Source of the DNA: an uncultured Ignavibacteriota bacterium
GTDB lineage: Bacteria > Bacteroidota > Ignavibacteria > Palsa-1295
Length of the DNA: 53,537 nucleotides
Assembly (NCBI GenBank): GCA_903900335.1
Contig: CAIUMP010000006.1
Span: forward strand, 1 to 53,537
Reading direction: 5' to 3'
This document shows positions 1,025-48,023 of the stretch, piece after piece (positions within the stretch are counted from its first letter, which is position 1; the number at the start of each line of letters is the position of its first letter). The notes under the pieces were generated by a model that saw nothing but the letters and a program-made list of their open reading frames with translations, was not told the origin of the DNA and did not search any database. The translations under genes and the position numbers were made by a program.

Positions 1025-3364
1025 ATGCAGAATCAAATCACCACCCTCGAACAAGCCGAAAAAGTAGCGATCGAATTAGGACTCTTAAAAGAGGAATTCG
1101 ATAGCATAGTGACGATCCTGAATGGCCGAATCCCGAGCTACACCGAACTCGGGATCTTCTCCGTTATGTGGAGCGAACACTGCTCGTATAAGAATAGCAT
1201 TTCGCTCCTGAAGACGCTCCCGCGCAAAGGTGGACGCCTGCTCGTCGAAGCGGGGGAGGAGAACGCGGGATTGATGGACATTGGCGATGGCCTCGCGGTG
1301 GCGTTCAAGATCGAGTCCCACAATCATCCATCTGCTGTTGAGCCGTATCAAGGCGCTGCCACGGGCGTTGGCGGAATTCTCCGCGACATTTTCACGATGG
1401 GTGCGCGGCCAATTGCGGCGCTGAATTCACTCCGCTTCGGTCCGCTTGAAGAGGGAAGCTCCTCCCTTACTGATCGCACCAAATTCCTCGTTCGTGGCGT
1501 CGTGCATGGCATCGCAGACTATGGTAATTCCTTCGGTGTGCCGACAGTTGGAGGCGAGGTGTATTTCGATAAATGCTATCAAGGCAATCCGCTCGTCAAT
1601 GCGATGGCAGTCGGGATCGTCGAGCATGGCAAGACAGTAAGCGCGACTGCGGAGGGCATCGGGAATGTCGTGATGATCGTAGGTTCGCGGACTGGACGCG
1701 ATGGTATCCACGGTGCGAGTTTGCTGGCGAGCGCAGTCTTCAGCGAGGCGGCAGAGTCATTGCGTCCGACAGTGCAGGTGGGTGATCCATTTGCTGAGAA
1801 GCTTCTACTCGAAGCAACCCTCGAAGCCATCGCCGCTGGTGTCGTCGTTGGTATGCAGGATATGGGTGCGGCGGGAATAAGCTGCAGCACTGCTGAGATG
1901 AGCGCAAAGGCTGGCACCGGCATGATGATAACGCTCGACAAAGTGCCGCTACGCGAAGCCAGCATGTCCGCGTACGAGATCATGCTCTCGGAATCTCAAG
2001 AGAGAATGCTCGTGATCGTAAAGCCGGAGAATGTGCAAGCGATCCAAGCGATCTTTCAGAAGTGGGATTTGCAAGCCGAGATCATCGGTGATGTGACGGA
2101 CACCGGCCGCGTCGTTATTGATTATCGCGGCGAACGAGTTGCGGATATTCCGTCACGTTCGCTTGCGCTTGGTGGCGATCAGACCCCCGTCTATAAGAGA
2201 GAGACGAGCAAACCGAAGTATCTCGCGGAGACACAAGCTTACGATTTCTCCACGCTCACCGATGTCGAAGATTGCAACGCAATGCTTCGCGAACTTCTCG
2301 CATCTCCGAATATCGCATCGAAGCGCTGGGTTTTCGAGCAGTATGATTCGATGGTGCGAACGAACTCACTCTATCTCACTGGAAGCGACGCCGCCGTTGT
2401 GCGCATGAAGGGCACGACGAAGGGGCTTGCAATGAAGACCGATTGCAATTCACGCTACGTTTATCTCGATCCGTATCGCGGCGGGATGCTCGCGGTTGTG
2501 GAGTCCGCGCGCAACGTGGCCTGCACCGGCGCTACGCCGATTGGTGTGACGAACTGCCTCAACTTCGGCAATCCATACGACCCCGAAGTCTATTACCAAT
2601 TCACCGAGGCCATTCGCGGCATGAGCGATGCGTGCCTCGCGCTTGAGACGCCGGTCACGGGCGGCAATGTGAGCTTCTATAATCAAAGTCCCGATGGCGC
2701 GATCTATCCTACGCCGACGATCGGGATGCTCGGGCTGATCGAAGACATTTCGAAAGTCGTCTCCAGCGATTTCAAGAAGGAGGGCGATGCCATCATTCTG
2801 CTTTCCGCCGCCGATAACGACAACGCATTCGATGGACTCGGTGGCAGCGAGTATCTCTATGCTCGCACCGGACTCGTAACCGGCCCAGCGCCGGAGACGA
2901 ATCTCGCGAAAGAAGCCGCGCTCGTTCGCGCACTTGTAGAGATGGCCGACGGCGGACTTCTCCGTTCGGCGCATGATGTAAGCGAAGGCGGCGTTGCCGT
3001 TACGCTCGCCGAGTGCTGCTTCGGACAAAGCACTGAGCGCCAGCTTGGCGCTCTGATCGAGAGCGTTGCCACCCTCTGCAATCCGCGTATTGCAAACGCC
3101 CGACTCGACGCCACGCTCTTCGGCGAGCGGCAAGGGCAGGTCATTGTTTCTGCTGACCCCGCGAAGGTGGATGCGCTGCTCCTTATAGCGAGCAAGCATG
3201 GCATCCCCGCCACAAAGCTCGGCCGCGTGATGGGTGATCGCCTCATCATTGGCGATGTGATCCACGAGTCGGTGGCGGAGTTGCACGCGGTGTATTCCTG
3301 TGCGCTCGCGGAGGCGTTGGGGGAGGGGATGGGGGGAATATCTAGCCCGGCTACCGTGGAATAA
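1025..3364 (+). CDS. purL: Phosphoribosylformylglycinamidine synthase subunit PurL
   Basis: About 779 residues, the size of the short PurL that works with separate PurS and PurQ. It makes formylglycinamidine ribonucleotide in step 4 of purine synthesis. The sequence shows MWSEHCSYK near residue 45, the ATP-binding KIESHNHPS and the [14 protein letters not shown] stretch typical of the family, and a second AIR-synthase-like half after residue about 390. ATG 1025 fits the family N-terminus ([15 protein letters not shown]); an upstream GTG at 989 is possible. purS and purQ are not adjacent. The last residues ([10 protein letters not shown]) do not look like the family tail. A second purL-like tail ending GEGIGVE lies at 5905-5961, so the original C-terminus was probably replaced. 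The 3' end overlaps the convergent gene at 3351 by 14 bp. Confidence 0.97.
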
Positions 3365-4757
3365 CCATTACTCTGCCGCCGAATTCAGCGTTGCCTGATC
3401 TTCCGATTAGGACCCAATACATACCGGGGGGAAGACCCGACACATTTACCGAAGCGCGACCAGTCGCATCCAATACATCGCGAAGCACCTGCCTGCCGAG
3501 CACATCCATCAAGCTGACCGGCTCAGAATATCTGTTTGAGGTTATGGTGACCAGTTCCGCCGAGGGGTTCGGGTACAATCGTGTTTTCGGGTCAAGAGGC
3601 TGTTGTGCACTAACACTGTTCTTCGAGGGCAGAGTGAACCGAGCGATCCATCCGATCGAGGCGGGTACGAAAAGCGAGCCATCGTCAAGAAGCGCAAGGC
3701 CATGGTGTTGATCGAGGATGGCCATTTGTGGAATTTGATAGTATTGTACCGGAGCGATTATTGTGTCCACGTACCAGTTTGTGCCACGCCACTGCTCCGT
3801 CCAAAGTAGCATTCCTATGCCCCAGGAAAGAATTCCCGTGCCATTTTCCAAGGCGTTGAGAGTCCCAGAATTATTTAGACTAAGCGGTCGGTCAAAAATT
3901 GTCTTCCAATTCGTGCCCGCGTCTGATGTAGTTACAAGAAGGATCTGTTGGGGCTGTTGGCTGGTAGGCCAATGATACCCCATTCCGATTCCCTCTCCGT
4001 GATTACCAACCCACGCTATTCCAGTTATGGACTTAAGCCCACCCGTATCTGACTGAGGGGGGTTGAATATCCACTTCGAACTATCGACTTCTGTTCCCGC
4101 GTGTGATATCGAGTAAAGTCTGTCCGAACCATTTTGATAGACAACAAACGAATCAGGGGAGTACATCTTGGGTGCCAACAAATAAGCGTTAGGTAGTCCT
4201 TGCGTTGGCTGCCAGTGTGCTCCCGCGTCGGAAGTTCGTATGAGGACTCCACCACCCATCGCAATAACGCCATTCGTGGAATCAAAGAAGGACACCCCCC
4301 CCGCGGCAGCAATCCAAGGATATGACTGGTCGATCCAGTTAACACCAGCGTCTGTAGTCCGATAGATAAGCCCGCTGTCACCTGTCAATAAGATATTGAC
4401 CGAATCTATATAATAGACCTTGCTAAAAAACCGTTGGATTTGATCCGTAAGCGGATGAAAGGGGAGATTTTGACGATTCCATGTTAGCCCACCGTCTACG
4501 GTCCGCTCAATGTATGGATGGTAAGGGGAAAGCGAATCCCACCAGTATGCGGTTGCCACTGCCAGACAATTGTGATCGTCGAGGCAACCAAGCGCGGTAT
4601 AAACGATTTGACCGGTGTCCGTCGGTCGAGGTAAAACGACTAGTGGTTCGATCTGCCCGAACACCGGATACGGCACTAGGTATTGGACAAATAAGGCTAG
4701 GGTGGCGACTCGCACCACCCTCAAAAAATTGCGCTCAAGTTTCGTCAGTTCGAACAT
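3351..4757 (-). CDS. Secreted YCF48/BNR-repeat protein with T9SS sorting domain (cassette copy A, gene 2)
   Basis: 468 residues from ATG 4757; the frame stays open to 4790. A signal peptide ends near VFGQ. The body has repeated Asp-box-like units ([32 protein letters not shown]), as in YCF48/HCF136 and BNR beta-propellers. The last ~80 residues are a type IX secretion sorting domain (LYPNPSAE ... [10 protein letters not shown] ... LPPGMYWV). It is therefore expected to cross the outer membrane by the T9SS and stay on the surface. Its ATG lies 13 bases inside the end of the upstream cysteine-rich gene, which suggests translational coupling. It is paralogous to the gene at 46674-48023; both contain GDSGLI followed by WIDQS. 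A run of eight Gs on the coding strand (4295-4302) could shift its frame. The ligand or role is unknown. Confidence 0.85.
4295..4302 (-). repeat. Poly-G tract (G8) inside the copy A YCF48/BNR gene
   Basis: Eight consecutive Gs on the coding strand encode part of AAAGGVSFF in the propeller. At the current length the frame is open. A gain or loss of one G would cut the protein before the T9SS sorting domain. The paralogue at 46674 has no such run at the matching place. It could be a slippage site or chance. Confidence 0.55.
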
Positions 4758-5392
4758 GCGTCCACTCCATAGCAAACACCCACAGGCCAAATTCCACCAG
4801 GGTCAGGGTTAGTGCTAATGTCACATCCGTTATTGACCACAGTGGTATTGGTAAGATACGTTGCAATGTGACCAAGGTTATCGCAACAAAGTGAGTACGT
4901 CTTTTCGCAAAGATTTGCGTCGGGACAAACTGTGGAGACAGGGAAGTCTGGTCCGCCATTTGGGTCCGCGACTAAATTCGTTTGCCAGCAAAGTCCTGTG
5001 ATATACGTTTCGTACACCGGACTTAGCGGATTGGGTGGGCAGGGGCCAAGTCCGGGAGGACAGTTCCTATCGGGTGGTCCACCTTGGAATGTTCTTCCGA
5101 CGGCAGCTATTTCCGTACCCCAGTTAACTCCATCACATGCGTGCAGCGAATGGGGTGTAATTGAGCATAAGTAATACTGAGTAACACCGCTTACTACCCG
5201 TGTGCAATAGGTTATATCCACCCAGCATGGAGTGATATTAAGAGTCATAGGTATGGGACCAGTCCAAGGAATCGTAGTTGGGGTTATTGTGGTCGGACAC
5301 TGGGCCCGAACTGGACTGACCAGACTAAGAGCGAATAACAAACATACTACCCCCCCCAGTGTCTTCAGGAATGCCATCTTGTGTTTTCTCAT
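4745..5392 (-). CDS. Cysteine-rich secreted protein (cassette copy A, gene 1)
   Basis: 215 residues from ATG 5392; ATG 5377 is also possible and the frame is open to 5431. It has a basic start, a hydrophobic core (LGGVVCLLFALSLV) and cleavage near VRAQ|CP, so it is exported by Sec; whether the Cys after the Gln is free or lipidated is open. The mature part has about 20 cysteines in patterns such as ITYC, CEKTYSLCC and a C-terminal WPVGVCY. No T9SS tail is present. The family is not recognised, but the protein at 46079-46677 matches it in Cys order and in the IWPVGxCY end. The hydrophobic core is encoded by a G8 run. The YCF48/BNR gene downstream overlaps its last bases. Disulfide-stabilised surface or periplasmic protein is the inference. 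Confidence 0.75.
   Translation of the reverse strand: MRKHKMAFLKTLGGVVCLLFALSLVSPVRAQCPTTITPTTIPWTGPIPMTLNITPCWVDITYCTRVVSGVTQYYLCSITPHSLHACDGVNWGTEIAAVGRTFQGGPPDRNCPPGLGPCPPNPLSPVYETYITGLCWQTNLVADPNGGPDFPVSTVCPDANLCEKTYSLCCDNLGHIATYLTNTTVVNNGCDISTNPDPGGIWPVGVCYGVDACSN
5350..5357 (-). repeat. Poly-G tract (G8) in signal peptide of copy A cysteine-rich gene
   Basis: Read on the minus strand the sequence is ACACT-G8-TAGTATG. With eight Gs the codons give TLGGVV and the frame is open (ON). Seven or nine Gs would stop translation within the signal peptide. The same position in copy B carries nine Gs, out of frame. Confidence 0.7.
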
Positions 5393-6102: not shown

Positions 6103-6810
6103 ATGTGCTCCGGTTCTATTCCTAATGATTTCGGAGTCGTTCACGAAGTTATATCAAGCTCTACCCCTATGTCCTGGGAAGTACTTGTCCGAGGTGCATA
6201 CAGCGTGTGTCCTCATGTTCTGACGTTTTTACGTAATCATTTTAAATCATCGGATATCTCCGATTTGGAGACGGCTACATCGGAAGCATTTTTTTCCTAT
6301 CTGATTGTGGCTCGCGATGGGAAACTCCAATCGGATGAAGGTGCTTTTTCGTTCATCCGTAAATCTGCCTACAGAGCGGTTCTAAAACAAATCCGCAGAA
6401 GTACACATGAGGAGCATATCGACGATTTGCAATTTGAACCTGCGATTTTAGATGCCTCTTTGAATCGACTGGAGATTATCGACGCACTCGACAACATTCT
6501 ATCCAAACTCCCAGAGCGGGATGCAGAAGTGATCACTCTCTACAGAGTGGAGGGACTCAGCGTCGATGAAATTGCAGCGAAGCAGAACAGGTCAGTCAAG
6601 GCAGTCCATCATTCGTTCGAGCGGAACATGAAGAAAGCCCATGATATTGCGATTGAGTTCGGTTTGGTCTCCGCAGAGCGGACGAACGACGAACGACGAA
6701 CGACGAACGACGAACGACGAACTGGAGAAGGCGTGACGGTAAAAATAATTCCGAGAAAAAATAATTTTGCGTGGGGAAATTTGCCTAAGCAGTGGCTCTT
6801 AACTCTATGA
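6103..6810 (+). CDS. RNA polymerase sigma-70 family (ECF-like) factor
   Basis: 235 residues from ATG 6103; ATG 6169 (MSWEVLV) is an alternative start. Residues about 25-110 fit region 2 weakly (DISDLETATSEAFFSYL). Residues about 125-185 fit region 4: LDNILSKLPERDAEVITLYRVEGLSVDEIAAKQNRS then an HTH recognition segment. No anti-sigma gene is next to it. A 7-bp tandem repeat (6681-6722) follows region 4 and encodes ERTNDERRTTNDERR; because 7 is not a multiple of 3, copy-number change would alter the C-terminal tail. GC is lower than in flanking genes. The T9SS cargo gene at 6902 is 91 bp downstream and may be its target; that is inference. Confidence 0.75.
   Translation: MCSGSIPNDFGVVHEVISSSTPMSWEVLVRGAYSVCPHVLTFLRNHFKSSDISDLETATSEAFFSYLIVARDGKLQSDEGAFSFIRKSAYRAVLKQIRRSTHEEHIDDLQFEPAILDASLNRLEIIDALDNILSKLPERDAEVITLYRVEGLSVDEIAAKQNRSVKAVHHSFERNMKKAHDIAIEFGLVSAERTNDERRTTNDERRTGEGVTVKIIPRKNNFAWGNLPKQWLLTL
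6681..6722 (+). repeat. Six perfect copies of the heptamer GACGAAC
   Basis: 42 bp, no mismatches, inside the sigma-factor gene after region 4. Loss of one unit would give the tail NDELEKA and a stop; gain of one would give a different tail ending in a run of charged residues. This is a simple sequence repeat of the kind that changes length by slippage. Confidence 0.9.
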
Positions 6811-46078: not shown

Positions 46079-46677
46079 ATGAAAAATCTCCGTAACTTTG
46101 TACTGGGGGGGGGCTAGTCGCCCTGTTGGTTTTGCTTAGTTTTCCGGATTCGTCCAGGGCCCAATGTCCTGATGGGTCTTGGACACCTGGAGGCGATTTC
46201 ACTATCACGATTCCGGGTTCTTCGTGTGATATTGAAATCTTCTATTGCTGGAAATTGGTTGGCGGTGTACTTAGTACATGGGTTTATGAAGTTGACCCAA
46301 AGACGAGTGGATGTAATACCTTTACCCCTGCTCAATTAATTCGCTGGGGTTCTGAATTAGCGATGGATGACCCTTACCTAATCTGGACTGTTCACGGAAT
46401 TACCCCATGCAGTAAGGGGACAACTACCGTTCAGAAATACAGACGGACATGTTGGAAGTATCAGTTCAATCCCGCAGGAGGCCCCCAATATGTTGCCTGC
46501 GATCTCTCGGACGAGTATTGCTTGGAAACATGCAAGGCATGCTATGGGGATATCGGCCCATACTACGTAATTTTCACTGACTGCTATTGGCAAGAGTCGG
46601 GGCTTCCTTCTTGTGATCTTCCTCCTAACATCTGGCCGGTCGGTACATGTTACTCTCTTGGTTGTGGAGTTGAATGA
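46079..46677 (+). CDS. Cysteine-rich secreted protein (cassette copy B, gene 1), phase OFF by one G
   Basis: From ATG 46079 the frame reads MKNLRNFVLGGG and hits TAG at 46115 because the poly-G run (46105-46113) has nine Gs. With ten Gs the frame joins the long downstream frame and gives a 199-residue protein: MKNLRNFVL-GGG-LVALLVLLSFPDSSRAQ|CPDG, a complete signal peptide. The downstream frame alone has only a TTG at 46126 and no n-region. The mature part is Cys-rich and matches the copy A protein, with the end IWPVGTCYSLGCG. The next gene's ATG overlaps its stop (ATGA). Phase-variable gene in the OFF state, or a sequencing indel. Confidence 0.75.
46105..46113 (+). repeat. Poly-G tract (G9) in signal peptide of copy B cysteine-rich gene
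   Basis: Nine consecutive Gs, flanked by TACT and CTAG. Ten Gs (or seven) restore the frame between the ATG at 46079 and the rest of the gene. It is in the same place of the signal peptide as the G8 run of copy A. The bases TAACTTTG at 46093-46100 also match a -7 promoter box, so a promoter-spacing effect cannot be excluded. Confidence 0.75.
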
Positions 46678-48023
46678 TGAAGCAGATTCGTCAGAATACT
46701 ACATGGTTGCTCACACTTCTGGTCTTGCTGGCCTCCGCTATTACGGCGGAGGCCCAGCCTTATTGGCACATCGTACGCCCAAAGTCAGACGGACAGAAGT
46801 TGTACTCGTTCACCGCACTTTCGAGCTACGGTGAGGACGTGGTGGCAGCGGCGCTTGTATTGGACAAAACTGATCCTCTTGACCGCTCAGATATTCTAAT
46901 CCTCCATAGCACGGACGCAGGAATCTCATGGATAGAACAAGACCCTGGCCTACCTGCCGAACAGGGCATGGGAGGAAAGTTCATTAAGGCACTCCAGATA
47001 ATTGACGCTCAGAACATCGTTGCGGCCGGTGATAGCGGATTGATCATACGAAGTTCGGACGGTGGTAGGACCTGGATCGACCAAAGCCTGAAGATTCATT
47101 GGCCTATCCTGAGCATCCATTTCTCAGACCCACTCACTGGCATTGTTCTTGACCAAGGACTGACAAATGTATATACTACAAGCGACGGAGGTAAACAGTG
47201 GGACTCTGCGAGCTTGCCTGCTACGGGACATTTCCCTCGTTATGGTCATTCCTATGGGCACGGCATGTTCAGGGTCTTGACCTACTTTAACGGGGGTATC
47301 CTGTACACTACCCGCGACAATTGGAAGTCAAGAGATTCCTCTTTACTCTATTCTCCTCCGTCGGATAGTCTGATCAACATCTATGGTTGTGCATTTGGGT
47401 CTGGCGACACTCTCGTCGCATACGGTGAGAATTGGAATCCAATTAGCCCAGTTCTTGCCCTTACCCGATCCACAGATGGCGGTAACCATTGGTCTCCAAT
47501 TACACTTGTGGATAGCTTGGTATATAGCCCGTCCTCAATTTCTCCTCTCGAGCGTAATACTGTTTACATGGGTGGCGGTTCGCAACTCAACTGCATTGGT
47601 GTTAGCAATGACCACGGTACGACGTGGAGAATAGACACAATCGCCCTTGACACTACACTTCCGCTGTATGCGATTGCACCGATTGAGGTCACAGCATCGG
47701 GTCAGGCGCTTGCCATCTGTTCCTATGGCCTCTTGCGACTTGAACAAGGTAGCGCCAGGGTAGAGTCGTTCGATCGAGTTGCACGTTCAACACATATCTA
47801 TCCGAATCCTACCATCGGGAGAATTGTCATCACCTCCGTGGAACCCCTTCGGTCCGTTCGACTTTTCGACGTAATTGGAAGGGAGTCGCTCCGTGACGCA
47901 CTTGATGAGCACGGCCAAGCAACCCTCGATCTCACCTCGCTCCCTCGCGGCATCTACTCCGTGATGCTTGATCACAATGGTGCGATGGTGCCGGTGGGGA
48001 AGGTGGCCGTGGTCGCAAAATGA
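46674..48023 (+). CDS. Secreted YCF48/BNR-repeat protein with T9SS sorting domain (cassette copy B, gene 2)
   Basis: 449 residues, starting at an ATG that overlaps the stop of the cysteine-rich gene. A signal peptide (LLTLLVLLASAITAEAQ) is followed by Asp-box units (HSTDAGISW, SSDGGRTW, TSDGGKQW, STDGGNHW, SNDHGTTW) and a T9SS sorting domain (IYPNPTIGRIVIT ... LFDVIGRESL ... LPRGIYSVML). It is the paralogue of 3351-4757. Expected on the cell surface. Loss of translation of the upstream gene in the OFF state should lower expression of this one if coupling holds. Confidence 0.87.
   Translation: MMKQIRQNTTWLLTLLVLLASAITAEAQPYWHIVRPKSDGQKLYSFTALSSYGEDVVAAALVLDKTDPLDRSDILILHSTDAGISWIEQDPGLPAEQGMGGKFIKALQIIDAQNIVAAGDSGLIIRSSDGGRTWIDQSLKIHWPILSIHFSDPLTGIVLDQGLTNVYTTSDGGKQWDSASLPATGHFPRYGHSYGHGMFRVLTYFNGGILYTTRDNWKSRDSSLLYSPPSDSLINIYGCAFGSGDTLVAYGENWNPISPVLALTRSTDGGNHWSPITLVDSLVYSPSSISPLERNTVYMGGGSQLNCIGVSNDHGTTWRIDTIALDTTLPLYAIAPIEVTASGQALAICSYGLLRLEQGSARVESFDRVARSTHIYPNPTIGRIVITSVEPLRSVRLFDVIGRESLRDALDEHGQATLDLTSLPRGIYSVMLDHNGAMVPVGKVAVVAK

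Follow-up and report, generated by a model that had tools for sequence, protein, structure and literature searches.

A tract of nine guanines (positions 46105-46113, forward strand) in the signal-peptide region of a gene for a small cysteine-rich protein is likely to be a slipped-strand, phase-variable switch controlling a putative two-gene secreted module. The tract lies in the window analyzed here, a stretch of 53,537 nucleotides from the genome of an uncultured Ignavibacteriota bacterium. An earlier note on this DNA had read the tract as a contingency device, and that reading is now supported by paralogues observed in both phases, by near-identical orthologues that differ only in tract length, and by other repeat units found at the same place in relatives.

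The 5' part of the gene (46079..46117, forward strand) begins with the ATG codon at 46079-46081 and encodes a signal-peptide n-region. In the current phase it reads MKNLRNFVLGGG and ends at the in-frame TAG at 46115-46117. The G9 tract starts 26 nt past the first base of the ATG, at the border of the n-region and the h-region, and is a mononucleotide run of at least eight within the 5' coding region. The downstream frame (46114..46677, forward strand) begins LVALLVLLSFPDSSRAQCPDGSW, runs for 187 codons to a stop at 46675-46677, and encodes the h-region, a cleavage site (SSRA/QCP) and a Cys-rich mature protein with 14 cysteines. Gain of one G or loss of two (G10 or G7) would place the gene in the ON phase, yielding a single fused protein, MKNLRNFVL(GGG)LVALLVLLSFPDSSRA/QCPDGSW, which is predicted to carry a textbook signal peptide. 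The frames on both sides of the tract are intact, a change of one unit toggles the full protein, and the downstream part is homologous to intact relatives. Re-reading of the sequence and its frames thus confirmed that the signal peptide starting at ATG 46079 is broken at TAG 46115 because the tract is one base short. Ten Gs do join it to the downstream frame, as had been claimed, but that frame is 187 rather than 180 codons long. It was also correctly described as having no credible start of its own, since the only start listed for it among the open reading frames, TTG 46126, lies inside the hydrophobic stretch and lacks a basic n-region.

Neither Pfam nor NCBIfam gave a match for the family of the downstream protein, which bears out the description of a new protein family. 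A first family alignment contained 12 invariant columns, 8 of them cysteine. The family has six members in the source genome (C6:46114, C6:4745-5392 on the reverse strand, C4, C19, C50 and C22). In four of the six, two ON and two OFF, G8-G9 interrupts the signal peptide at an equivalent point; the remaining two lack the tract and have a normal ATG. Both OFF members are otherwise intact, with 187 and 212 open codons past the tract and the conserved cysteines retained. One of the ON members, absent from the earlier note (as is the overlapping downstream gene), is located in the window (4745..5392, reverse strand; MRKHKMAFLKTLGGVVCLLFALSLVSPVRA/QCPT...), and its G8 tract (5350..5357, reverse strand) is in frame at the corresponding signal-peptide position. 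Profile comparison returned a weak match to RNase K6 (E 0.0006), driven mainly by cysteine spacing, and the catalytic CKxxNTF segment of RNase A was not conserved in the family consensus; a similarity to RNase A was considered but not adopted as an assignment. An AlphaFold model built from three sequences was too poor for use (pLDDT 44). The window protein (P0001) as a lone query found nothing in a search of genome contigs, in which a profile (A2) gave one named relative, and no plasmid match was found.

Within a class sample of 391 genomes, family members occurred in 37 genomes from 27 genera, and poly-G leaders were present in the family in three GTDB families of the class. A repeat is lacking in most members across the class, and the family as a whole is thus not defined by the switch. 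Many members in fragmented genomes start no more than about 250 bp from where the contig ends (for example G018:C92, G313:C41, G110:C1, G319:C89 and G374:C150), as if the 5' leader were repeated or hard to assemble. Two copies in another genome (G025:C63 and G025:C38) have an in-frame repeat in the N-terminal region (ADTPSGRHAFWPTRLL) that differs in copy number.

The local genomic context includes a common second gene. At the first window locus, this partner (46674..48023, forward strand) encodes a signal peptide, a BNR/YCF48-like propeller (PF14870) and a T9SS sorting tail (PF18962, TIGR04183), and its start overlaps the stop of the Cys-rich gene at 46674 (ATGATGA). The partner of the second member (3351..4757, reverse strand) is likewise BNR/YCF48-like with a T9SS sorting tail and shares a 13-nt overlap with its Cys-rich gene. 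Both tails match TIGR04183 and PF18962. Wherever the sequence beyond the Cys-rich gene was readable, the next gene was BNR/YCF48-like; together with the T9SS tails, this suggests that the genes form a two-gene exported module. In the source genome and its close relatives most of these pairs overlap, and full-length copies in G018, G313 and G076 have a gap of 60-70 nt between the two genes. From the overlap we infer that switching of the Cys-rich gene extends to its partner. The earlier attribution to a T9SS organism is supported by the partner gene (TIGR04183 and PF18962 above cut-off) and by one relative in the family (P0002) in which the Cys-rich protein itself bears a T9SS sorting tail; Pfam and NCBIfam profiles found no C-terminal T9SS sorting domain on P0001. 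One further arrangement was observed in G018:C96, which has the same leader as G313:C247 and lacks most of the Cys-rich body; its shortened open reading frame now runs into the BNR gene through an ATGA overlap, such that the switch leader is almost directly joined to the partner.

All runs of at least eight Gs in the 4.0 Mb genome, along with exact G7 runs, were surveyed by pattern search with their flanks. The number of G8+ runs in the window is not striking (4 overlapping matches versus a shuffle mean of 1.0, with 4 of 100 shuffles reaching 4), but the position of such runs in the genome is not due to chance. The signal-peptide test required an ATG no more than 75 nt upstream, a basic start, a hydrophobic core and, in any phase, an open frame of at least 45 codons. 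With a strong core, 7 of 26 G8+ runs passed, compared with 0.2 expected given how much of the window such regions make up (P about 1e-9), whereas none of 79 G7 runs did (P = 3e-5 for the contrast). Four of the seven are OFF, namely the window tract (C6:46105, G9), C50:14035 (G8), C3:39978 (G8), in a secreted protein of 665+ residues, and C56:169482 (G10), in a BNR-like secreted protein. The others are ON: C6:5350 in the window (G8), C22:142233 (G8) and C52:5675 (G12), the last in a 60-residue open reading frame. A 150-bp codon-usage score was too noisy to detect broken frames, and an ORF-span test was used instead; all six G8-G9 runs interior to coding sequence that could be judged (one G9, five G8) were in frame, as were about 27 G7 runs. 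Across the class, an ATGA...G8 pattern showed no uniform enrichment over a reversed control, so this placement of poly-G is a matter of particular genomes and genes and no class-wide property.

Several other repeats were recorded during this survey. In the source genome, G12 runs at C21:139624 and C31:36790 correspond to C12 (poly-Pro) near the 3' end of opposite-strand open reading frames, and C50:50683 is a G14 run at the 3' end of another open reading frame that looks sigma-like by eye. The ends of contigs C49 and C52 coincide with a G37 run or lie no more than 20 bp from a G17 run; these may be genuine long runs at which the assembly broke or an artefact of sequencing. The window also contains an ECF-type sigma factor gene (6103-6810, PF08281) with six perfect copies of the heptamer GACGAAC (6681-6722) close to its 3' end, and a change in copy number would alter the C-terminus of the product. 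Related genomes have further genes in which poly-G falls within the signal peptide or the first membrane segment, at G001:C17 (MKNLRRFKLSW-G8, OFF), G006:C309 (MTVRTKPYW-G8, ON) and G014:C26 (MKRSFMILTLLAFA-G13, OFF).

Variation between genomes was seen in G018 and G313, which belong to another GTDB family. Their family members share a common leader, consisting of the upstream region, AGGAGTT and MNT-VL-SRTREKL, followed by poly-G and then by divergent Cys-rich bodies; five leader copies in this genus have tracts of G11, G10, G10, G9 and G7. Over an alignment of 3,268 bp, the orthologues G018:C69 and G313:C101 show no mismatch and a single gap, which is the tract: G11 places the first out of frame (OFF) and G10 the second in frame (ON), so that tract length alone changes phase in this pair, although draft assemblies can miscount G9-G11 and this could in principle explain the difference. 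Eleven other homopolymers of 6-8 in the same stretch are identical between the two, and a tract-free control locus differed by three mismatches and no gap over 2,138 bp. In the C96/C247 pair the tract is G10/G9, and the second remains in frame owing to an extra upstream T. G076:C128 (G10, OFF, with a BNR gene behind it) comes from a third GTDB family. Other repeat units occupy the space between ATG and signal peptide in two relatives, about 7 copies of the heptamer TCAGCAC in G001:C10 and about 4 copies of the octamer ACACTCAA in G007:C5, both out of frame at present. Among the 82 members with a 5' end, an in-frame ATG before the signal peptide was missing (scored OFF) in 6 of 10 with a repeat versus 1 of 72 without; the P value of 4e-6 is a guide only, since related members were counted as independent, and the criterion considers ATG alone where some members may start at TTG or GTG.

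These observations bear on four other accounts of the window locus. We consider it unlikely that an assembly or sequencing error has hidden a true G10 here and a true G9 in the C50 paralogue, with both genes simply ON. Homopolymers are the commonest site of indels, and the two draft contigs that end at or near G17 and G37 runs indicate that poly-G did trouble the assembly. Nevertheless, general homopolymer error is hard to reconcile with the in-frame interior runs, and both ON paralogues were assembled with an in-frame G8. OFF copies turn up repeatedly in independent assemblies, in some cases at the 7-bp and 8-bp repeats, which are immune to this kind of error. Even a true error at the window locus would leave a tract whose location marks a slippage-prone gene. 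That the gene is a pseudogene, its function lost to a frameshift fixed at a site prone to mutation, seems most improbable. Members elsewhere are indeed truncated or interrupted by stops (G018:C96, G313:C31 and some G310 matches), but the two OFF members of the source genome keep their long open frames and conserved cysteines; the tract is the only lesion seen, and all four tract-bearing members of this genome are otherwise intact.

The remaining two accounts would have the gene expressed at G9. Transcriptional slippage or ribosomal frameshifting on the tract would give some ON protein at any length, making it a dosage device rather than a DNA switch. The tract does offer a slippery sequence (G GGG GGG) and can pair with a downstream GCCC to form a short hairpin, and slippage on long runs has been documented for runs of A/T (PMC1088944). 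A programmed device, however, keeps one offset, whereas the members here would need one additional G (C6, C50, G076), one fewer (C3, G018:C69) or no change (the ON members), and the 7-bp and 8-bp repeats of relatives are not expected to act in this way. We therefore rejected a single programmed frameshift and regard such decoding as very unlikely to explain the locus, although it may occur on top of the switch as leaky expression. It is likewise extremely doubtful that the gene is on at G9 through another start, at TTG 46126 or by re-initiation after TAG 46115. This TTG is 8 nt past the TAG and in the right frame, but its product (MVLLSFPDSSRAQ) lacks a basic n-region, and the upstream MKNLR segment, which such a start would leave aside, shows DNA-level conservation in two paralogues (77% in C50 and 74% in C19).

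The phase-variable switch would operate as follows. Slipped-strand mispairing during replication would lengthen or shorten the run by one G, so that the frames of signal peptide and mature protein would be joined or separated; in other bacteria, slippage of this type at repeat tracts is established as the cause of comparable variation (PMC9187656, PMC5084427), and it is the presumed cause of the length changes here. At G9 the gene would be OFF, with ribosomes halting at TAG 46115 and no Cys-rich protein exported; at G10 it would be ON. Expression of the overlapping T9SS-sorted BNR/YCF48-like gene would probably fall in the OFF state through loss of translational coupling or polarity. If paralogues switch independently, the population would therefore be a mosaic of displayed small secreted or surface proteins, which might serve in evading phage, predators or competitors, or in varying adhesion. 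More tentatively, and with somewhat more doubt than confidence, we propose that the lineage keeps a set of switchable signal-peptide leaders (a conserved start segment with poly-G, or with 7-bp or 8-bp repeats in relatives), each placed ahead of one of several divergent Cys-rich proteins with its coupled BNR/T9SS propeller gene. Several copies would switch on their own, and exchange of the leader from one body to another may occur, generating both ON/OFF and sequence variation of an exported module outside any known pathogen setting.

A 2025 review of phase variation describes knowledge of the subject as drawn mainly from pathogens and foresees that the gaps for ocean and soil bacteria will be closed (PMC11868660). 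The present locus offers such a case in bacteria that are uncultured and probably environmental, with a defined gene pair and a single genome holding several switch loci that are apparently independent. A literature search combining phase variation with Ignavibacteri- found nothing in the collection searched; the mechanism is known, and the lineage, protein family and two-gene module are new. The locus also carries a warning, in that genes of such metagenome-assembled genomes called as pseudogenes or given wrong starts may be switched genes.

The closest functional parallel is the opa genes of Neisseria, a multigene family for surface proteins in which every gene is put in or out of frame independently by a short repeat of its own within the signal-peptide region. 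Similarly, several paralogues here (4 of 6 in the source genome) have their own repeat in the signal-peptide region and differ in phase. The opa repeats are CTCTT pentamers in genes for beta-barrels, whereas those described here are G7-G11 (7-bp or 8-bp units in two relatives) ahead of a small Cys-rich secreted protein and a BNR/T9SS propeller, in an unrelated phylum; the window locus would thus work like opa without belonging to the opa family. In Campylobacter, too, surface functions are over-represented among phase-variable poly-G genes, which have long repeat tracts within them and are in part turned ON or OFF by frame. The same holds for Neisseria meningitidis, whose long intragenic tracts, including poly-G, were characterized in strain collections and by deep sequencing of single colonies (PMC5084427, PMC5953494). 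These are pathogens followed by strain and single-colony sequencing, whereas the bacteria considered here are uncultured and known from assembled genomes. Known T9SS cargo with a Por_Secre_tail (PF18962 / TIGR04183) resembles the window partner, whose tail scores above cut-off, and P0002, which carries its own; the switched Cys-rich protein of the window differs in having no sorting tail. Among non-pathogens, the nearest counterpart with a G-tract is the sortase-pilus switch of Bifidobacterium breve, in which replication slippage at an intragenic G-tract sets expression of a surface structure and the range of lengths was obtained by deep sequencing (PMC9187656). That switch concerns Gram-positive pilus clusters and is documented with population and in vivo data, whereas the present case is built on comparative genomics and places the tract in the signal peptide.
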